Assembly: GCF_015864945.1 (NCBI RefSeq)
Contig: NZ_JADYWF010000002.1
Coordinates: forward strand, 186,001 to 250,000
Length of the DNA stretch: 64,000 bases
Direction of reading: 5' to 3'
From: Salinibacterium sp. NG253
Lineage (GTDB): Bacteria; Actinomycetota; Actinomycetes; Actinomycetales; Microbacteriaceae
Shown: positions 38,559 to 62,190 of the stretch, piece by piece
Layout: each line of letters starts with the position of its first letter
How positions within the stretch are numbered: the first letter of the stretch is position 1
Translations under genes and position numbers: made by a program
Notes under the pieces: model-generated
Database searches by the model: none
Seen by the model: only the letters and a program-made list of their open reading frames with translations
What the model was told of the DNA's origin: nothing

Positions 38559-38720
38559 ATGCCTAAATGGGAGTACTTGACAACACCACTGATGGTGCAC
38601 AATTCCACCGCGATTCTTAATAATTGGGGATCCGAAGGGTGGGAGCTTGTGCAGGTCGGTACCGGCCCTGAAGGGGGCCCGGTCGCTTATTTCAAACGCA
38701 TCAAGGAAGAGAATAAGTAA
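38559..38720 (+). CDS. Small DUF4177 protein
   Basis: A 53-aa protein starting MPKWEYLTTPLMVHN and containing WGSEGWELVQV, the conserved core of DUF4177. Function is unknown. It is divergent from the PBP gene and overlaps the RidA gene by one base (TAATG), so it heads a probable DUF4177-RidA-Mur ligase transcript. The same small gene precedes the RidA gene in mycobacteria (Rv3678A-Rv3678c region). Confidence 0.85.
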   Translation: MPKWEYLTTPLMVHNSTAILNNWGSEGWELVQVGTGPEGGPVAYFKRIKEENK

Positions 38721-39181
38721 TGTCACAGCTTGATCAGCGGCTCGCAGAGCTGGGCCTGACGGTCCCAGAAAGTTCAAAGCCACTTGCCTCCTATTTGCCA
38801 GCAATGGTTTCGGGAAACCTTGTGTACACGTCCGGTCAGCTGCCGATGGTTGATGGCGCACTTCCGGCAACCGGCAAAGTCGGTGCCGAGGTGGATGCTG
38901 CTGCAGCACAGGAGTACGCCAAGACCTGTGTTCTCAACGGCCTTGCTGCCGCGAGGGGCGCGATTGGATCTCTTGACCGCATCACGCGCGTGGTGAAGGT
39001 CGTCGGTTTCGTGGCATCCGACCCCAGCTTTACCGGCCAGCCCGGTGTAATCAACGGAGCGTCCGAGCTCTTGGTTGAGATTTTTGGTGAGATCGGTAAG
39101 CACGCTCGTAGCGCTGTCGGTGTCGCTGTATTGCCGCTCGATTCTCCTGTTGAGGTCGAGTTCGTGTTCGAGTTCGCGTGA
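38720..39181 (+). CDS. RidA/YjgF-family protein
   Basis: A 153-aa member of the long RidA-like subgroup. SYLPAMVSGNLVYTSGQLPM and the C-terminal HARSAVGVAVLPLDSPVEVE, with the conserved Arg, are present. RidA enzymes deaminate reactive enamine/imine intermediates from amino-acid metabolism; activity in this longer subgroup is less certain. ATG overlaps the stop of the DUF4177 gene. It also overlaps the Mur ligase gene by four bases. Confidence 0.9.
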   Translation: MSQLDQRLAELGLTVPESSKPLASYLPAMVSGNLVYTSGQLPMVDGALPATGKVGAEVDAAAAQEYAKTCVLNGLAAARGAIGSLDRITRVVKVVGFVASDPSFTGQPGVINGASELLVEIFGEIGKHARSAVGVAVLPLDSPVEVEFVFEFA

Positions 39182-40695
39182 TCGAAGTCTGGCAGTCCGG
39201 TCAAGCCGGAGAGAATGCCCCGCTTCGCTCGCTAGATCTGAGTGAGTGGGATCCTACGCTCGTGGGCGTCACGCTGCAGGCGCGTCGTCTGGTGCAAGAC
39301 AGTCGCGAGGCTGGGCCGGATGACGTGTTTGTGGCTATCGGCACCACTGCGTCGTCGGCATTGCCGTACATTGATGCCGCTCTCGCCCAGGGTGCTGTCG
39401 CTGTGCTCGTGGACGCGAAGGCGGCCGAGAGCGCCCACGGTGACGACCGCGTGTTCGCGATTGCGAACCTCCGCGAGGTAATCGGCGCCCGAGCGGATGC
39501 GTTTGTCGAGCATCCGTCTGCCTCGATGTCCATGGTGGGTATTACAGGCACGAATGGTAAAACGTCGACGGCTCACTTGCTGACGCAAGCGTGGCAGCGA
39601 CTGGGGATGACGTCGGCAACGATCGGAACGTTGGGCGCGGGAATTACGGGCAAGCCCCGCATCAACATGGGCATGACGACTCCGCAAGTGACGGCGGTGC
39701 ACCAGTTCTTGGATGACTTCCACCGTGCCGGCGTCACAAACGTGGCTATGGAGGTCAGCTCTCACGCGCTCGAGCAACGCCGAGTAGATGGCGTTGCGTT
39801 CGACATTGTCGCGTTCACGAACTTCACGCGCGATCACCTCGACTACCACGGGTCGATGGAGGAATATGCGGCGCAGAAGGCAAAGATCTTCACGCTACCG
39901 GGCATCCAGACGGCTCTGCTGAATCTTGATGACGCGGCTGCCGAGAATCACTTCCACCACACGATCCCTGCGGGCGTGCGCGCGATTGGCATGACCTCCC
40001 ACGGCCATGCTGAAGCGAGTGTTCGTGCCGATAACGTGAAGCTCACCACCGAGGGTCTCGAGTTCGATCTCGTGATCGAGGGCGAAAGCCATCACGTCTC
40101 CAGCGGTCTCATCGGACGCTTCAATGTGGACAACTTGCTCACGTGCGCGACAGTGCTGTGGGCCCAAGGTGTCGAGCCGCGTGCGATCGCTGAGGTATTG
40201 GCGCCGCTCGAGCCGGTGCTGGGGCGTATGACCCGCATCCGCGAAAACGACCAGCTGCCGTTGGTTGTAGTGGATGCCGGCCACACTCCCGATGCGGTGC
40301 GTCAAGCAGTCACGGCTCTGCGTGACTCGGGCCACACCCGCATCGTGACCGTCTTTGGTGCAACGGGCGACCGTGATCCGGGCAAGCGCCCGGTGATGGC
40401 TCGCATCGTTGAAGACGCCTCTGACGTAATCGTGGTTACCGACGACGATGTGCACAACGAAGATGGCGACCAGATTGTGGACCACATTCGCGCCGGATTC
40501 GAACACCCGGAGCGGGTAGTGGAAATTCGCGACCGTACGACCGCCATCGCCTATGCGATTGATGCAGCGAATCCGGATGACGTGGTGCTCTTGCAGGGCA
40601 AGGGTCACGAACCGTACCAAATTGTGGGCAACGAGCGCGTGCCGTTCAGCGACATCGACACCGCTATTCGCTTGCTCAAGGAGCGCGCGAAGTAG
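39178..40695 (+). CDS. MurE-like UDP-MurNAc-peptide ligase
   Basis: A 505-aa Mur ligase. ATP motif GITGTNGKTSTAHL; carbamylated-lysine region TNFTRDHLDYHGSMEEYAAQKAKIF; C-terminal GKGHEPYQIV as in MurE. The motif that reads DNPR in meso-DAP-specific MurE is here TDDDVHNEDGDQ, so the Arg that binds DAP is absent. Also VVDAGHTPDA replaces the usual D-Y-A-HTPD. It probably adds a different residue-3 amino acid (Microbacteriaceae use Lys, Orn or diaminobutyrate), or is a paralogue with another role. It lies outside any dcw cluster. The GTG start overlaps the RidA gene. Confidence 0.85.
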   Translation: MIEVWQSGQAGENAPLRSLDLSEWDPTLVGVTLQARRLVQDSREAGPDDVFVAIGTTASSALPYIDAALAQGAVAVLVDAKAAESAHGDDRVFAIANLREVIGARADAFVEHPSASMSMVGITGTNGKTSTAHLLTQAWQRLGMTSATIGTLGAGITGKPRINMGMTTPQVTAVHQFLDDFHRAGVTNVAMEVSSHALEQRRVDGVAFDIVAFTNFTRDHLDYHGSMEEYAAQKAKIFTLPGIQTALLNLDDAAAENHFHHTIPAGVRAIGMTSHGHAEASVRADNVKLTTEGLEFDLVIEGESHHVSSGLIGRFNVDNLLTCATVLWAQGVEPRAIAEVLAPLEPVLGRMTRIRENDQLPLVVVDAGHTPDAVRQAVTALRDSGHTRIVTVFGATGDRDPGKRPVMARIVEDASDVIVVTDDDVHNEDGDQIVDHIRAGFEHPERVVEIRDRTTAIAYAIDAANPDDVVLLQGKGHEPYQIVGNERVPFSDIDTAIRLLKERAK

Positions 40696-53675: not shown

Positions 53676-54842
53676 ATGTCGTTGTGGGAGGGCCTGACGG
53701 GCCAAGCTGAAGCGATCGCCGTTCTTGAGGCCGCGGCCTCGTCATCGGCGTTGGGCAGCTCAGAACAGTCGTCGATGACGCACTCGTGGTTGATCACGGG
53801 CCCGCCCGGATCTGGCCGCTCTAATATCGCCTACGCTTTCGCTGCCGCCCTGCTCGGCACGCGCGGCGACGAAACCGAAGAGTCGGTCTATAAGCAGGTT
53901 GTTGCCCGCACCCATCCCGACCTTGGTGTGCTCAGCACCGAACGCGTCATCATCTCCATCGACGAGGTGCGCAAGCTGGTGGCCTCGTCGCAGTTCTCGC
54001 CGTCGGTCGGCCACTACCGCGTCATGATTATTGAGGATGCCGACCGCATGGTCGAGCGCACCTCCAACGTTCTGCTCAAAGCACTCGAAGAGCCGCCGCC
54101 ACGCACGGTCTGGATTCTGTGCGCGCCCAGCGAAGCAGACCTCATTCCCACCATCCGTTCCCGCGTGCGCAGTGTTCGTCTCCGCACGCCCGCGATCGAA
54201 GATGTTGCCCAACTGCTGCAAGACCGCGATGGCGTCGCACCCGATATTGCGTTGCGTGCGGCACGAGAAGCACAAAGCCACATCGGCATGGCACACCGTC
54301 TTGCGACCAATGCGGAGGCCCGCGAACGACGGGAACAGGCACTGACGACCGTGCTCAACATCCGCACGGTCTCGGACGCTGTGATCGCCGCCACTCTCTT
54401 GCTCGAGCTGTCGAAGGCGGATGCCACCGCCCTCACCGAGGAGAAGGACGCCCACGAACGCGAGTCCGCGCTTCGCTCGCTCGGTGTTGCCCCCGGCGGC
54501 ACCATTCCGCCGGCACTGCGGGTGCAGCTCAAGAACCTCGAAGAAGACCAGAAGCGTCGTGCAACACGGAGCCTCCGTGACGGTATTGACCGCATCATGG
54601 TTGACCTGCTGTCGCTCTACCGCGACATTTTGTTGACCCAAATTGGTGCCCCGGGAGAACTCATTAACCTCAGCATTGTCAATAACCTCACGGCGGTGGC
54701 GAACCGCACAACAGCGCCAGCGACGCTCGCCATCATGGACGGTATCGCTGAAGCGCGCCGTCGCATCGAAAGCAACGTTGCTCCGGCACTCGCCCTTGAG
54801 GCGATGCTCGTGAAGGTCGCGGTATCGGGACGCGGGGCATGA
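53676..54842 (+). CDS. holB: DNA polymerase III subunit delta'
   Basis: A 388-aa AAA+ clamp-loader subunit. The P-loop reads GPPGSGRSN with Arg in place of the catalytic Lys, expected for the non-hydrolysing delta' subunit. Sensor region WILCAPSEADLIPTIRSR and the SRVRSVRLR segment resemble DnaX. It forms the clamp loader with DnaX (22.7 kb) and delta. ATG is ten bases after tmk. It overlaps the downstream peptidase gene by four bases (ATGA). Confidence 0.93.
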   Translation: MSLWEGLTGQAEAIAVLEAAASSSALGSSEQSSMTHSWLITGPPGSGRSNIAYAFAAALLGTRGDETEESVYKQVVARTHPDLGVLSTERVIISIDEVRKLVASSQFSPSVGHYRVMIIEDADRMVERTSNVLLKALEEPPPRTVWILCAPSEADLIPTIRSRVRSVRLRTPAIEDVAQLLQDRDGVAPDIALRAAREAQSHIGMAHRLATNAEARERREQALTTVLNIRTVSDAVIAATLLLELSKADATALTEEKDAHERESALRSLGVAPGGTIPPALRVQLKNLEEDQKRRATRSLRDGIDRIMVDLLSLYRDILLTQIGAPGELINLSIVNNLTAVANRTTAPATLAIMDGIAEARRRIESNVAPALALEAMLVKVAVSGRGA

Positions 54843-56380
54843 GGCACCGCTCTGCACGCCTCGTTGGCCTCACATCGGTCGCGCTGGCGGTCTCGCTGAC
54901 ACTGAGCGGCTGTGTGTCGTGGTTCGTGCCGTCGGAATCCAGCACAACATCGACACCGACTGAAGAAGCCGTTGCGCCGAATCTGACAAAGTTCTATCAG
55001 CAGGTGCTGGAGTGGGCGAGCTGTGGAGACGATCTGCAGTGCGCTATGGCGATTGCGCCGGTGGATTGGGAGAATCCCGAGGGCGACACGATCGAGTTGG
55101 CCCTTGTGCGTCAAGTTGCTCAAGGCAATAACCGCATCGGATCTTTGCTCGTCAACCCGGGTGGCCCTGGCGGTTCTGGATTCGATTTCATCGCCGACAG
55201 TGTGGACTACGCCACCAGCGAGGCCCTTCAGTCGCAGTTTGACGTGGTCGGTTTTGACCCTCGTGGGGTGAACCGTTCGACGGCGGTGTCGTGTTACTCC
55301 GACCCTGCCGAGATGGATGAATACATCTACGGAATCACGCCGGGGGAGAAGGGCAGCGACGAATGGATTGCCGCCGCCACTGATGCCTCCGCCCAGTTTG
55401 CTCAGCGCTGTAGCGAGGAGACAGGCGAGCTGTTGGGCTTCGTTGACACCCCGAGTGCTGCCCGCGATCTCGACATGCTGCGTGCCGCTCTCGGCGATGA
55501 GACGCTGAACTATTTGGGCTACTCCTACGGAACGTTGCTCGGCCAGGTTTATGCCGAGTTGTTCCCGGAGAAGACGGGGCGGCTCGTTCTCGATGGTGCG
55601 GTCGACCCCGCGGCATCCGAATTCGAAACTACCAAGGCTCAAGCAGAGGGTTTCGAGGGCGCGCTTGATGCGTTCTTGGCTGACTGCGCCGGCGCGAGCG
55701 ATTGCCCGTTCACGGGATCTGTCGAGCAGTCGCGCACGACCATCCGCACGTTGCTCGACCGCCTCGACAAGAGCCCGCTCACAAACGCTGACGGGCGCAA
55801 ATTGGGCAGCGCAACCATGTTCACGGCCATCATCTTGCCGCTCTACAGCCAAGACAACTGGGCCTACCTGCGCCAGCTTTTCGACTCGGTAATGAGGGGC
55901 GACGCCACCATCGCTTTCGATTTGGCCGACAACTACAACGGCCGCAGCGCTGACGGCACCTACGCTGAAAACCAGACAGAAGCTTTCATCGCGATCAATT
56001 GCTTGGATGCCCGCGAGCCAGCCGATAACGAGAGCATGCGTGCGCAGGCTGCCGAGCTTGCCGCCGCGGCTCCGGTGTTCGGCCCGCAGATGTCGTATGG
56101 CGACCCCGGTTGCGCTAACTGGCCGGTGGAAGCGAAGCGGGAGCGCGTGGCGATTGCTGCTCCCGGTGCGGCCGACATGCTGGTGATCGGCACGACGAAT
56201 GACCCGGCGACGCCGTACATGTGGGCACAAACCGTTGCCGAAAACCTCGACTCGGGCCACCTGATCACCTACAACGGTGAAGGTCATACGGCGTATAACA
56301 AGTCGAATGAGTGCGTAAATACGGCGGTAGAAGACTTTCTCCTCAGGGGCGAAGTTCCCAGCGCCGATCCGAACTGCTAA
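54839..56380 (+). CDS. TAP-family alpha/beta-hydrolase lipoprotein, copy 1
   Basis: 513 aa. Signal peptide with lipobox LSGC (C25). The alpha/beta hydrolase fold shows the oxyanion region VNPGGPGGSG, nucleophile S229 in GYSYG, and the C-terminal TAP domain with the Asp in TTNDPATPY and the His in GEGHTAY. Relatives are secreted tripeptidyl aminopeptidases (SlpD/E, TAP). It is probably a wall-associated exopeptidase. It is translationally coupled to holB, and a tandem paralogue follows after 16 bases. Confidence 0.92.
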   Translation: MRHRSARLVGLTSVALAVSLTLSGCVSWFVPSESSTTSTPTEEAVAPNLTKFYQQVLEWASCGDDLQCAMAIAPVDWENPEGDTIELALVRQVAQGNNRIGSLLVNPGGPGGSGFDFIADSVDYATSEALQSQFDVVGFDPRGVNRSTAVSCYSDPAEMDEYIYGITPGEKGSDEWIAAATDASAQFAQRCSEETGELLGFVDTPSAARDLDMLRAALGDETLNYLGYSYGTLLGQVYAELFPEKTGRLVLDGAVDPAASEFETTKAQAEGFEGALDAFLADCAGASDCPFTGSVEQSRTTIRTLLDRLDKSPLTNADGRKLGSATMFTAIILPLYSQDNWAYLRQLFDSVMRGDATIAFDLADNYNGRSADGTYAENQTEAFIAINCLDAREPADNESMRAQAAELAAAAPVFGPQMSYGDPGCANWPVEAKRERVAIAAPGAADMLVIGTTNDPATPYMWAQTVAENLDSGHLITYNGEGHTAYNKSNECVNTAVEDFLLRGEVPSADPNC

Positions 56381-56396
56381 CCGCTAGGCTCATGCG

Positions 56397-57965
56397 GTGA
56401 ACTTTATCGCCGCCGCCCCCGCCTCTCGCGCTCGCAGGTTTGCCCTTGTGGTGCCCGCTCTCGTTCTCACCCTCGTGCTGAGCGGCTGTGCGAACCTCTT
56501 TTCGGGGCTTTTTGGGGACACTTCGCAGCCGACCGGTGAGGCGGTATCGGCAGAACTCGCTCCCTACTACGAGCAAATTCTCACATGGGTGGATTGCGAT
56601 AACGGCGCTCAGTGTGCGACGGCGATCGCTCCGATGGATTGGGCAAACCCGTCTCCAGAAACTGATATCGAGATCGCGATGGCGCGCCAGGAGGCAACAG
56701 GGGAGAGCTTGGGGTCGCTGTTTGTGAACCCTGGTGGGCCAGGCGCCTCAGGTTTTGATCTCATCCATGACGACGTGGACTTTGCGGTGAGTACGAACCT
56801 GCGTGAGAACTACGATGTGATCGGCTGGGACCCTCGCGGAGTTGGCCGTTCGACTCCCGTGACGTGCCTAGACGATGACGGTCTCGATGACTTCATTTTT
56901 GGTATTCCGGCTGCGGCGGTCGGCAGCGATGAATGGCTTGCGGAGAGCGAGCAGGCGGCCATCGATTTCGGCCAGGCGTGTCTCGACAACACGGGTCCGA
57001 TCCTGCAGTTCATCGATACCCAAAGCACGGTGCACGACCTCGACATGTTGCGCGCGATTGTGGGCGACGAGAAGCTGCAGTATTTGGGTTACTCCTACGG
57101 CAGCGATATCGGCTCTTATTACATCGAAAACTTCCCGCAGAACGTGGGTCGCATTGTGCTCGACGGCGCCACCGACTCGTCTATTTCTGTTTTTGAGGTC
57201 GGCCGCGTTCAGACGATTGGTTTCCAGCGGGCACTCGAAAACTATTTGGCGGCGTGCCCGACATCGTTCGATGACTGCCCATTCACCGGCGGGGTGGATG
57301 CCGCGTTGGCGACGATCCGCGAACTGTACGACCGCTATGACGCGAATCCGATCGCTGCCCCCGATGGCCGCATGATGGATGCCGGTGTGCTCGATATCGC
57401 GATGAGCACTGCCCTCTACTCTCAAGATTCGTGGCCGTTCCTCAACGACCTTTTCTCGGAGGCTGCGCGCGGTGAAACGGATACCGCATTCTTCCTTGCT
57501 GATTTCTATTACAGCCGCGATCTCGATGGCAGCTACACCGACAACTCGCTCGAGGCTTTCATCGCGATTTACTGCGTCGACTACCCCGTTGAGACTGACC
57601 CTGCCGTACTGGTTGAACAGCAGGAACTCATGCGTGAGGCGTCGCCGACGACCTACCGGGATTTTCCGCCGACCGGCGACCTGACCTGCCTGAATTGGCC
57701 GTACCAGTACATCGGGCCCGACATTACGGAGCTGACCGGTGAGGGCGCACCGCCCGTGCTGATCATCTCCACCACGGGCGACCCGGCGACACCCTACGAA
57801 TGGGGCGTAGCACTCAGCGAGCAGCTAGAGAGCGCCCAGCTCATCACCTACAACGGCGAAGGTCACACCGCCTACAACGGTGGTGTCGGGTGCATCGATG
57901 GAGCGGTCGACGCCTATTTCATCAACGGTGTAGTCCCGAATGACGACCCAGATTGTGCTGCCTAA
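56397..57965 (+). CDS. TAP-family alpha/beta-hydrolase lipoprotein, copy 2
   Basis: 522 aa. GTG start, lipobox LSGC (C31). Same architecture as the preceding gene: VNPGGPGASG, nucleophile S233 in GYSYG, TTGDPATPY and GEGHTAY. The two proteins align along nearly the whole length but with clearly diverged lid regions. It is an old tandem duplication that may split substrate specificity. Transcription likely ends before tRNA-Thr, though no clear hairpin is visible in the 79 bases between. Confidence 0.92.
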   Translation: MNFIAAAPASRARRFALVVPALVLTLVLSGCANLFSGLFGDTSQPTGEAVSAELAPYYEQILTWVDCDNGAQCATAIAPMDWANPSPETDIEIAMARQEATGESLGSLFVNPGGPGASGFDLIHDDVDFAVSTNLRENYDVIGWDPRGVGRSTPVTCLDDDGLDDFIFGIPAAAVGSDEWLAESEQAAIDFGQACLDNTGPILQFIDTQSTVHDLDMLRAIVGDEKLQYLGYSYGSDIGSYYIENFPQNVGRIVLDGATDSSISVFEVGRVQTIGFQRALENYLAACPTSFDDCPFTGGVDAALATIRELYDRYDANPIAAPDGRMMDAGVLDIAMSTALYSQDSWPFLNDLFSEAARGETDTAFFLADFYYSRDLDGSYTDNSLEAFIAIYCVDYPVETDPAVLVEQQELMREASPTTYRDFPPTGDLTCLNWPYQYIGPDITELTGEGAPPVLIISTTGDPATPYEWGVALSEQLESAQLITYNGEGHTAYNGGVGCIDGAVDAYFINGVVPNDDPDCAA

Positions 57966-59193: not shown

Positions 59194-60054
59194 ATGGGGA
59201 GAGTTCCGTTTTTAACGGCCTTAGTCACCGTCGTGATTGTTGGAGTAGTACCGTTCGTCGGGGGAGGCGGACCAGGGCTCACCGAGAGCGCAACCGCTAA
59301 CTCAGCTGCACGTTCGCCGCTGTTCGCGTCGACGGCGACTGCGCCGATCGAAGAGTCGGTCGATGTCGTCGCGATTGCCAGCCTCGAACGCGTCACCGAA
59401 GAGTCACTGGCTGCAGCAATCAAGGCTGAAGCCAAGTCGCTGACCACTGACTCCGAGCACCTCGCGCAGAAAGCAGTGCCGAAGCCGGAGCCAATCGTCG
59501 TTGCCTCGGTAACGGGCGGTTCAGCATCCGTTACTCAGCTTCGTGCAGCCTATGCTTCGGCGGGCCAGTCGTGCCCGAGCAACGTTGGTGGTGGCGTACC
59601 TGGTGCGCCGAGCCGCAGCTCCTCACAGGGTGTCGCAGGCACGACCTCAGGCGACCTCGCATCCTTCGCTTATGCCTACAACTCGATCCGTGTTGCTAAC
59701 TGCTTGCAGCCCATCGCGCTGTCGAACTTCCGCTACGACTCCTGCATGGAAGAACGCCTCTTCTGGATGGCAGAATCGCCCAGCTCGAATCCTCTCGACG
59801 GTTGGGGCCACAACGGCACCACTCGCTCCGACGGCGTTGCCGCTCGCGGTTGCGACGGAAACCTCGCCGGTGGTTCAGGAAACAGCGGAGCCACCGTTGC
59901 TTCCAAGTGGTGGGAATCGTATTCTCACCGCGCATCGCTTTACCGCCCCGGTGTCAGCACCGGTGGCGTGTGCATCGCCTTCGCCATGACCCATGGTGGA
60001 ATCGATGAGCCTTACAGTTTTACCCGCGCAGCAGCACGATGGACGTACTGTTAG
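59194..60054 (+). CDS. Secreted CAP-like domain protein
   Basis: 286 aa. Signal peptide at residues ~5-35. A Ser/Thr/Glu-rich linker (~35-150) precedes a C-terminal domain beginning SFAYAYNSIRVANCLQPIAL. It contains WWESYSHRASLYRPG and GVCIAFAM, which resemble CAP/SCP (cysteine-rich secretory, PR-1) signatures, plus five cysteines likely paired outside the cell. GGGGGA lies upstream of the ATG. It is probably exported; function unknown. The family call is by motif reading only. The 216-base upstream gap holds its promoter but no recognised gene. Confidence 0.65.
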   Translation: MGRVPFLTALVTVVIVGVVPFVGGGGPGLTESATANSAARSPLFASTATAPIEESVDVVAIASLERVTEESLAAAIKAEAKSLTTDSEHLAQKAVPKPEPIVVASVTGGSASVTQLRAAYASAGQSCPSNVGGGVPGAPSRSSSQGVAGTTSGDLASFAYAYNSIRVANCLQPIALSNFRYDSCMEERLFWMAESPSSNPLDGWGHNGTTRSDGVAARGCDGNLAGGSGNSGATVASKWWESYSHRASLYRPGVSTGGVCIAFAMTHGGIDEPYSFTRAAARWTYC

Positions 60055-60099
60055 GCCCACTCGAAGCGCTGGGTTGGAACATCCGGGTACTATAACCGG

Positions 60100-61524
60100 G
60101 TGACTGATTCAGCCAGTAGTGAGCCGAAAGCGCCGGGAGGAATACGCGCGTTTATAACTCAGCACCCCACCGCATCCACGGTGACGGTCGCAGCGGTTGT
60201 ATTCGTACTACTCGCAGTAGTAGCAGTATTCGCCGGAATTTCGGTTGGCTCCGCTAACTCGGCAGTTGATGTCACCCCAGACGAAGTCACTGCAGAGCAG
60301 CGGAGCCAACCGGATGTTACACCCGGAGCAGTCGCGGTGCGCACCTGTTCTGTGGATTCTTTGGCCACGGTCGCAGCCTTCCCCTCACTTGTTGGCGTCG
60401 TGACGGATGTCGCTACGGGCAACGTGCTGTGGGACCGATCTGCCGACGAAGCGGCCAGCCCCGCCCACATCGTGACGGCGATGACGGCTGCTGCGGCACT
60501 TCAGGCTCTCGGTGCAGACACTCGCATCAGCACTAAAGTGATCGACGGTTCATCGGCTGGCGTGATCGTGCTGGTGGGTGGCGGCGACCCGACCCTCGCG
60601 ACGACCAATGCGTCGTACTATCGCGATGCCCCACAAATTTCGGATCTCGCTTCGCAGGCGATAACCCGCTATGAAGAGCTCCATCCTGGCGTTCCGATTA
60701 CGGAGATCGTGCTCGACTCCACTCTGTGGAACACGAGCGATGCCTGGGATGCGAATTGGCCCGAGCGGGAACGCACTGGCGGATACCACTCCTACGTTAC
60801 GGCGCTCATGGTTAACGGCGACCGCGCTGATCCCACCATCGCGATCAGCCCCCGCGGCACCGATCCTGTGCAATCGGCTGGGCAAGCATTCGCCCAAGCC
60901 GCTGGATTGCCCGCGGTCACATTCTCGACCGGTGCAGCGGTCGGCAACACGGTGCTGGCTGAAGTCAAATCGCAACCTGTCAGCGTGCTCGTGGAGCAGA
61001 TGCTGATCAGTGGCGATGACTCTTTGGCTGAGTCGCTTGCCCGCCTCGTTTCCAAACAGCAAGGTCTCAGCGGCGCTGCAAGCACTCTGAACCAGGCCAT
61101 CCAAAGTGTGCTCTCGGATGCCGGACTCGATGATGCCGGAACCATCACCATCACCGATGGTTCAGGTCTCAGTGCCAAAAACCAAGTCTCGCCGTTGTTC
61201 GTCGCACAGTTCATGGCGGCAGGGGCATCGGGTAGCGGCGCAATCGCGACAGCGTTCTCGATGCTTCCGATCGGGGGCGAAAGCGGCGACCTTTATAACC
61301 GTTTCGAGGGGGATGCCGCTGCGGCATCCGGTCACGTCGCGGCTAAATCAGGGTGGACGAACCAGGAGCATTCGCTTGGTGGCGTGGTGAATGCCAAGGA
61401 CGGCACTCAGTTGGCTTTCGCGTTCTACGCGATCGGCGAGGGCATCTCCACCGACGCACGCACCGCGCTCGACAACCTCGTTGCTGGCGTTTATGCCTGC
61501 GGAAGCAATCTCTCCAACTACTAG
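60100..61524 (+). CDS. Peptidase S13 (PBP4/DacB)-like protein with altered catalytic motifs
   Basis: 474 aa. One N-terminal TM helix (~residues 28-50), then a D-Ala-D-Ala carboxypeptidase-like fold. Family features VVTDVATGNVLWDRSAD, the segment before TAMTAAAALQALG, LVGGGDPTL and ITDGSGLSAKNQVSP are clear. Catalytic motifs differ: SxxK reads SPAH (S120-H123), SxN reads GDD (305-307), and the third is KSG (416-418). Without the general-base Lys and the SxN Ser it may be inactive and serve as a regulator or scaffold. It starts with GTG. Its stop codon lies in a 16-bp tandem repeat. Confidence 0.82.
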   Translation: MTDSASSEPKAPGGIRAFITQHPTASTVTVAAVVFVLLAVVAVFAGISVGSANSAVDVTPDEVTAEQRSQPDVTPGAVAVRTCSVDSLATVAAFPSLVGVVTDVATGNVLWDRSADEAASPAHIVTAMTAAAALQALGADTRISTKVIDGSSAGVIVLVGGGDPTLATTNASYYRDAPQISDLASQAITRYEELHPGVPITEIVLDSTLWNTSDAWDANWPERERTGGYHSYVTALMVNGDRADPTIAISPRGTDPVQSAGQAFAQAAGLPAVTFSTGAAVGNTVLAEVKSQPVSVLVEQMLISGDDSLAESLARLVSKQQGLSGAASTLNQAIQSVLSDAGLDDAGTITITDGSGLSAKNQVSPLFVAQFMAAGASGSGAIATAFSMLPIGGESGDLYNRFEGDAAAASGHVAAKSGWTNQEHSLGGVVNAKDGTQLAFAFYAIGEGISTDARTALDNLVAGVYACGSNLSNY

Positions 61525-61605: not shown

Positions 61606-62190
61606 GTGGTTGCTGCACTTTTCATTATTGATGTCCAGAACGATTTTACCGAGGGTGGCGCGTTAGGCGTCGACGGCGGTGCCGCTGTGGCGGCCGGAAT
61701 CACCGACTATCTGCGGGCCAATCCCGATCGCTATGACGTGGTGATCGCATCCCGTGACTGGCACGATGCCGACAATGACAACGGTGGCCACTTTGCCACC
61801 GATGCCGAGCCCAACTTTGTTGACACTTGGCCCGTTCACTGTGTTGCGGGCACACCTGGGGCCGAGTACCACCCCGCGCTCGACACCTCGCTCGTGCAGG
61901 TGCACGTGCGTAAGGGGCAGGGCGTTCCGGCGTACTCAATCTTCGAGGGCACGACCGCGGAGGGCGAGACGGTGCCCGCCCTGCTTGATCGTCTTGGTGT
62001 CGACACCATCGATGTCGCTGGCATCGCTACCGACTACTGCGTTCTTGCTTCTGCTCTGGATGCCGCGGGCAGCGGCCGCGATGTGTCGGTGCTCACCGGC
62101 CTAGTCGCCGGTGTCGCTCCGGAGTCGAGCGCCGCCGCTCTCAGCACGATGGCAGACACGGGCATCACGCTTGTCTCTACCGAAGACTGA
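61606..62190 (+). CDS. pncA: Nicotinamidase
   Basis: A 194-aa isochorismatase-fold amidase. Catalytic Asp in FIIDVQNDFTEGGALGV, metal ligands in SRDWHDADN and the downstream His, the catalytic Lys in HVRKGQG and Cys in VAGIATDYCVLASALDA. It hydrolyses nicotinamide to nicotinate in NAD salvage, and in mycobacteria activates pyrazinamide. GTG start, 81 bases after the S13-like gene. Confidence 0.94.
   Translation: MVAALFIIDVQNDFTEGGALGVDGGAAVAAGITDYLRANPDRYDVVIASRDWHDADNDNGGHFATDAEPNFVDTWPVHCVAGTPGAEYHPALDTSLVQVHVRKGQGVPAYSIFEGTTAEGETVPALLDRLGVDTIDVAGIATDYCVLASALDAAGSGRDVSVLTGLVAGVAPESSAAALSTMADTGITLVSTED

Follow-up and report, generated by a model that had tools for sequence, protein, structure and literature searches.

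A Salinibacterium protein of the S13 (DacB/PBP4-type) penicillin-binding family lacks the nucleophilic serine and the lysine of the SxxK motif as well as the serine and asparagine of the SxN motif, so that an acyl-enzyme could not form; with its acylation centre lost, the protein is almost certainly inactive as an acyl-serine peptidase, as judged from its sequence. Such a protein would be expected neither to cut the stems of peptidoglycan nor to be labelled covalently by penicillin. The predicted fold has been kept, and purifying selection has continued after the loss of the catalytic residues, as in a pseudoenzyme. We consider it likely that this conserved pseudoenzyme has a non-catalytic role in the cell-wall machinery, either as a scaffold or as a docking subunit, perhaps mainly through its domain II, with DD-carboxypeptidase activity supplied by the S11 enzyme DacA.

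The window (i.e., the whole stretch of 64,000 nucleotides that was analysed) is part of one contig of a 2.97-Mb genome from Salinibacterium (Microbacteriaceae). The protein is encoded by an uninterrupted ORF located at exactly 60100-61524 on the forward strand, and its features are as follows.

60100..61524, + strand: S13 (DacB/PBP4-type) pseudoenzyme, 474 aa, GTG start (profile and structure-based alignments).
60166..60234, + strand: predicted membrane helix, residues 23-45, of signal-anchor type (AlphaFold2 model, with low pLDDT there; hydrophobic sequence).
60466..60477, + strand: former SxxK motif, now H123-I-V-T126 (alignments; start of model helix 122-137).
60520..60936, + strand: insertion between motifs 1 and 2, residues ~141-279, counterpart of S13 domain II (clade identity; MtbPBP4 layout).
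61012..61020, + strand: former SxN motif, now G305-D306-D307 (alignments to structures and relatives).
61345..61353, + strand: KTG motif, retained as K416-S417-G418 (alignments to structures and relatives).

Membership in the S13 family was indicated by two curated profiles, with both cut-offs passed; Peptidase_S13 (PF02113) matched at an E value of 6.6e-49 and 167.3 bits (cut-off 22.8) and the PBP4 equivalog TIGR00666 at 121 bits (cut-off 107.8). The AlphaFold2 model (mean pLDDT 88.1, pTM 0.81) shows the fold of PBP4, including the insertion domain of S13 proteins, and in a structure search of the PDB it aligned with Actinomadura R39 (1W79; VIA-align Z 43.1, rmsd 2.5, 368 residues), E. coli PBP4/DacB (2EX2; Z 41.2), and B. 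subtilis PBP4a (1W5D; Z 38.9). The original prediction that fold-specific segments and a membrane anchor remain was thus borne out at the level of predicted structure, with the confidence of the model being low at the anchor. The window protein shares with these three proteins the family, the predicted fold, an insertion between motifs 1 and 2, and a KxG motif, but differs from them in lacking the Ser and Lys of SxxK and the Ser and Asn of SxN and in having a shorter insertion. With regard to actinobacteria, a report on M. tuberculosis PBP4/DacB (Rv3627c) describes a likewise extracytoplasmic S13 protein that has domain II and no domain III, and that carries the motifs Ser114-x-x-Lys117, Ser295-Asp-Asn297, and Lys408-Thr-Gly410 (PMC10815838); the window protein has His and Thr, Gly and Asp, and KSG in place of these intact motifs, and also appears to be without domain III.

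The register of the motifs was taken from alignments to solved PBP4 structures and to relatives, which are gap-free between motif 1 and a conserved T-A-A-A-A-L. In this register the PAS-x-x-K column reads P-A-H123-I-V-T126, with His123 in place of the nucleophile and Thr126 in place of the lysine, as can be seen by setting P-A-H-I-V-T-A-M-T-A-A-A-A-L of the window protein against T-G-S-V-L-K-V-L-T-A-A-A-A-L of an intact congener (L062). In the AlphaFold2 model, helix 122-137 opens around residue 123, which we take to be the place of the nucleophile in PBPs. The original prediction had described SxxK as changed to SPAH by a replacement of Lys with His; alignment to the DacB/PBP4 structures upheld the loss of the motif and shifted its register by three residues, as S120-P-A-H123 (60457-60468) lies three residues too far to the left and would need a three-residue gap beside an ungapped conserved stretch. 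The reading of SxN as GDD agreed with our alignments at residues 305-307, where not only Ser has changed to Gly, as had been noted, but also Asn to Asp. With both SxxK residues and both SxN residues lost, the case for a pseudoenzyme is stronger than had been claimed, and of the three motifs of an active serine DD-peptidase only the third is found (K416-S-G). An alternative alignment with intact SxxK and SxN motifs, which would have spoken against the original prediction, did not emerge either, in that a pattern scan of the whole window protein found no intact substitute; the only S..K is at residue 7 in the N-terminal tail (where 8 of the 11 clade members have it) and the only [SY]xN at residue 51, adjoining the membrane helix.

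Conservation of these changes in relatives, another check that had been proposed, was found throughout a clade of 11 genomes, all of which share H123, T126, D307, and KSG; G305 is present in ten and replaced by Ala in the other. A sequencing error or an odd strain was rejected on the grounds of this shared loss. The named close relatives are S. amurskyense DSM 16400, the Salinibacterium strains SWN248, SWN167, and PAMC 21357, and the marine actinobacterium PHSC20C1. An S13 gene is present in 25 of the 27 genomes of the genus (own genome included), and SxxK has been lost in 17 of these 25 and kept in eight, two of which have KPG as their third motif. A second dead group within Salinibacterium (four genomes) has N together with Q or H in SxxK, followed by GDN and KPG, VTG, or VVG, and a third (one pair) has G and Q in SxxK, followed by SDN and KSG. 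A second, active S13 copy that might serve as backup was rejected, as the ORF described here is the only one in its own genome with a PF02113 match (two match pieces in one ORF), and no further copy was found in the 25 gene-bearing genomes of the genus (own genome included; where there are two adjacent pieces, they belong to one ORF each).

At the level of the family, 242 of 299 genomes had an S13 match, and 150 places in 149 genomes were sampled among the matches listed, with 93 matching genomes outside the sample; sampling favoured higher-scoring matches, and merging of identical sequences reduced 248 sequences to 223. Of these 223 distinct proteins, 194 are intact, 22 have lost Ser or Lys from SxxK, and in seven SxxK is present while SxN is without its Ser or Asn or KTG without its Lys; some of the degenerate sequences are from MAGs (e.g., L081 and L094). 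The degenerate share may be an underestimate, since a sequence from a family genome outside the sample of 149 (L272) is also degenerate (EESGVPG). By comparison, all 61 S13 proteins taken from outside the family in the same order (better-scoring ones among the matches listed) are intact, which sets the direction of change. Parsimony on a tree of 139 of the 223 rows (every degenerate sequence, every row through L130, and each fourth row among the intact sequences beyond these) gave six changes for loss of SxxK, of which well-supported branches force five, and ten changes for loss of any motif, of which they force six; motif columns had been removed from this tree, and several long branches meet in it. 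Sequence comparison therefore supports repeated loss across the family. In a 40-row tree, the window clade has a support of 100/100 and a stem of 0.69, and its sister is the SxxK-bearing L071 (89/82); two losses within Salinibacterium are favoured by the sequences but not proven, as a single dead clade was not rejected (AU p 0.094).

The Lys of the third motif has been lost in 13 of the 29 degenerate family sequences, including three of the four in the N/Q Salinibacterium group, whereas the clade of the window protein keeps it. KTG has become KPG in the DacB proteins L056, L071, L057, L067, and L049, two of which are from Salinibacterium that still have SxxK; the sequences look as if motif 3 had been weakened before SxxK was lost. 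In one genome, a distance of about 2.7 kb separates two S13 genes (L194 and L211; G052:C9:42697-43872 and 38634-40010), one of which is fully degenerate (GLGAIAT), the other having SxxK and KTG with SDG for SDN.

The surroundings of the gene comprise three further features.

59194..60054, + strand: protein of 286 aa that looks secreted and, by eye, CAP-like (conserved upstream neighbour in Salinibacterium).
60088..60093, + strand: TACTAT, a -10-like box (TANNNT) that precedes the GTG by 6 nt (clade conservation; a leaderless-type arrangement is suggested).
61606..62190, + strand: pncA-like nicotinamidase of isochorismatase fold, downstream neighbour (Pfam, NCBIfam; synteny).

In 77 of 80 named loci the S13 gene is followed, on its own strand, by a match to the nicotinamidase gene, which argues that this is the ancestral dacB locus rather than that of a stray paralogue; a diverged paralogue inserted elsewhere is disfavoured by the same synteny. 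Intact DacB proteins of other Salinibacterium (e.g., L062) and of other Microbacteriaceae are found at this pncA locus, with ~38-54% identity to the window protein at the named loci, and have intact S-x-x-K, SDN, and K-x-G motifs (the last being KTG in most of them), the first two of which are lost in the window protein. Eight of the 11 clade genomes agree fully over the 20 nt that precede the start, and the other three show one or two differences there (one with TACGAT), while sequence further upstream varies; of 14 other Salinibacterium dacB genes, 13 likewise have a TANNNT box that precedes a start by 6 nt (L024 is without it). From its sequence and position, this start-proximal box may be a leaderless promoter, which it resembles. 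The gene at 59194-60054 immediately precedes the S13 gene in Salinibacterium, whether the S13 protein is dead or intact; the C-terminal half of its product looks CAP/SCP-like by eye, and the product had no Pfam or NCBIfam match at 0.001. Two tandem TAP-like alpha/beta hydrolases are encoded at 54839-57965 (+) and have matches upstream of S13 in many named loci.

Constraint after the loss is seen in several measures. Within the clade, 11 of 11 ORFs are open and the median dN/dS is 0.090 (range 0.041-0.134; 55 pairs, 11 genomes), while the neighbouring genes gave 0.084 (pncA, the same 11 genomes) and 0.082 (CAP-like gene, ten of these); the median dS of 1.26 is near saturation, and these values are rough. 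The SxxK-bearing S13 genes of Salinibacterium gave dN/dS values of 0.24 (six genomes) and 0.26 (eight genomes). Constraint looks weaker in the second dead group (0.217 in four genomes versus 0.130 for its own pncA), while the third (one pair) gave 0.146 versus 0.166 for pncA. Among 68 positions at least 95% conserved in the 194 intact proteins, the clade keeps 62, and four of the six lost (S123, K126, D239, S305, N307, and L382) are catalytic (hypergeometric 9e-5), a test that is partly circular because the reference proteins had been chosen for intact motifs. In a control with the 61 outgroup proteins, which were not motif-chosen, 41 positions were at least 95% conserved and the clade had lost 11, including four of the five catalytic positions (P 0.014), a weaker result. 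Pooling 15 degenerate groups gave 45 of 75 catalytic cells lost versus 63 of 945 other cells; as these groups were picked for motif loss, this count shows only that the rest is largely kept. The insertion (~141-279) is the most conserved part of the protein within the clade (mean identity 0.89 versus 0.79-0.81 elsewhere) and also the part nearest to the intact congeners (0.59 versus 0.37-0.51 for other parts); in the second dead group it does not stand out from the other parts (0.75 versus 0.73-0.77).

The protein is a direct DacB (PBP4) orthologue at the ancestral Microbacteriaceae locus; its acyl-serine centre is gone, its membrane anchor and PBP4 fold are predicted to remain, and it persists under strong purifying selection. 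We propose that it has a scaffold or docking role in the cell-wall machinery, for which domain II might provide the working surface. DD-carboxypeptidase activity would then come from S11 DacA; the genome has one S11 DacA match, with the motifs SITK, SAN, and KTG intact, and one VanY-type match, which suggests that loss of S13 activity was bearable. The non-enzymatic job was probably already present in the active DacB of Microbacteriaceae, because separate lineages lost catalytic residues yet kept most of the scaffold. Precedents for such a job come from laboratory mutants of two PBPs. In work on E. coli PBP4, S62G and S62A did not bind beta-lactams, an active-site mutant was still found at midcell (S62G more diffusely), localisation required the non-catalytic domain 3, and PBP1A, LpoA, NlpI, and EnvC were partners (PMC9166362). 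Similarly, a report on B. subtilis PBP2B describes a structural role independent of catalysis, in that inactive PBP2B supports division and PBP3 then becomes essential (PMC5656894). As far as these sources go, E. coli PBP4 S62G and B. subtilis PBP2B S309A are thus acylation-dead and still localise or support the division complex; by contrast, the dead state of the window clade is natural and fixed, and neither precedent would by itself show the same for the window protein. Several observations weigh against a scaffold, among them the weaker-looking constraint in the second dead group and its insertion of merely average conservation. The domain that localises the E. coli protein is domain III, which is apparently absent here and, in the source cited for it, from MtbPBP4. 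Furthermore, the S13 gene is missing from some relatives; no S13 match was found in a 99%-complete congener (G021) or in one that is 87% complete (G018), nor in nine near-complete genomes of the genus g78 among those listed (e.g., G121, G174, and G218), and the absences from G021 and g78 indicate that the protein is not universally needed.

A pseudoenzyme that binds ligands, i.e., one whose pocket holds D-Ala-D-Ala stems or muropeptides uncut and reports or shields them, is a rather doubtful alternative. Retention of K416-S417-G418 and of a D353-G-S-G motif in 11 of 11 clade members is in its favour, as is that of most near-fixed positions. Loss of the KTG Lys in 13 of 29 degenerate sequences, three of four in the N/Q group among them, indicates however that pocket binding is not preserved by all lineages, and of the roles that the original prediction had suggested, partnering with active PBPs (or scaffolding) hence fits the family pattern better than muropeptide binding; in addition, the His and the additional Asp might leave the pocket less open to ligands, and the best-conserved segment in the clade is the insertion and not the penicillin-binding part.

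It is improbable that the pocket has been rebuilt (H123, T126, D307, K416, S417, and H424) as a ligand, metal, or catalytic site and that domain II in addition carries a scaffold role already present in active DacB. We likewise give little credence to a rebuilt site as an alternative explanation, in which His123, Asp307, Thr126, Lys416, Ser417, and a clade-specific His424 would form a catalytic or metal site that works without an acyl-enzyme. While none of the 11 clade members departs from H123, T126, D307, S417, T420, and H424, at positions where the residues of most intact relatives differ from these, other degenerate lineages carry unrelated residues at these columns, and we know of no enzyme of PBP4 fold that uses a His/Asp/Thr/Lys/Ser/His set.

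Plain decay, in which catalysis is gone and the sequence has yet to erode, also seems highly unlikely. It would agree with the dispensability of the gene in G021 and in the nine g78 genomes among those listed, with the long stem of the clade, and with a median identity of 50% to SxxK-bearing congeners, as compared to 71% for pncA; but a pseudogene is hard to reconcile with ORFs open in every clade member, a dN/dS equal to that of pncA, a conserved pre-start box, and the number of near-fixed positions kept.

The notion of an active PBP4 with misaligned motifs can be dismissed, since its only candidates (residues 7 and 51) lie outside the folded domain and since the one point for it, the passed TIGR00666 cut-off, is shared with seven degenerate relatives. 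Six of these lack one or both SxxK residues (L057, L058, L066, L068, L081, and L094), and L100 keeps SxxK and lacks the SxN Ser and the KTG Lys, so this cut-off does not test catalysis. For annotation this is a warning, as eight of eight degenerate proteins tested (that of the window and the seven others) pass TIGR00666 and would be named active D-Ala-D-Ala carboxypeptidases.

Returning to a scaffold or docking role, we note that accounts of PBP4/DacB generally centre on the reaction it catalyses; a constrained dead version implies a second job valued above catalysis. Pseudoenzymes and PBPs with structural roles are already known; what is new is a natural and recurrent pseudo-PBP4, and our search of the open-licence PMC literature retrieved no account of dead S13 proteins from Microbacteriaceae. 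The window clade includes a type strain, S. amurskyense DSM 16400, in which a non-catalytic function of DacB is directly testable.

Some minor observations concern the genomes with weak or absent matches and the DAP-binding column. No clean empty site was seen in G021, where the sole pncA match sits in a different neighbourhood; in that genome (L251/L260, G021:C51) the S11 DacA gene adjoins a TrmH-like gene, and a TrmH-like gene is downstream of S13 in the window genome. One g78 genome (G316) has weak S13 matches only (E 3.9e-11). The cell wall of Microbacteriaceae is not known to contain DAP. Arg361 of E. coli PBP4 is described as DAP-binding in the source already cited (PMC9166362); window residue 359 (nt 61174-61176), counted as this column, is Ala, and the clade has Pro or Ala there. 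Arg is found at this column in 9 of the 194 intact family members, a scarcity that could fit a wall without DAP.
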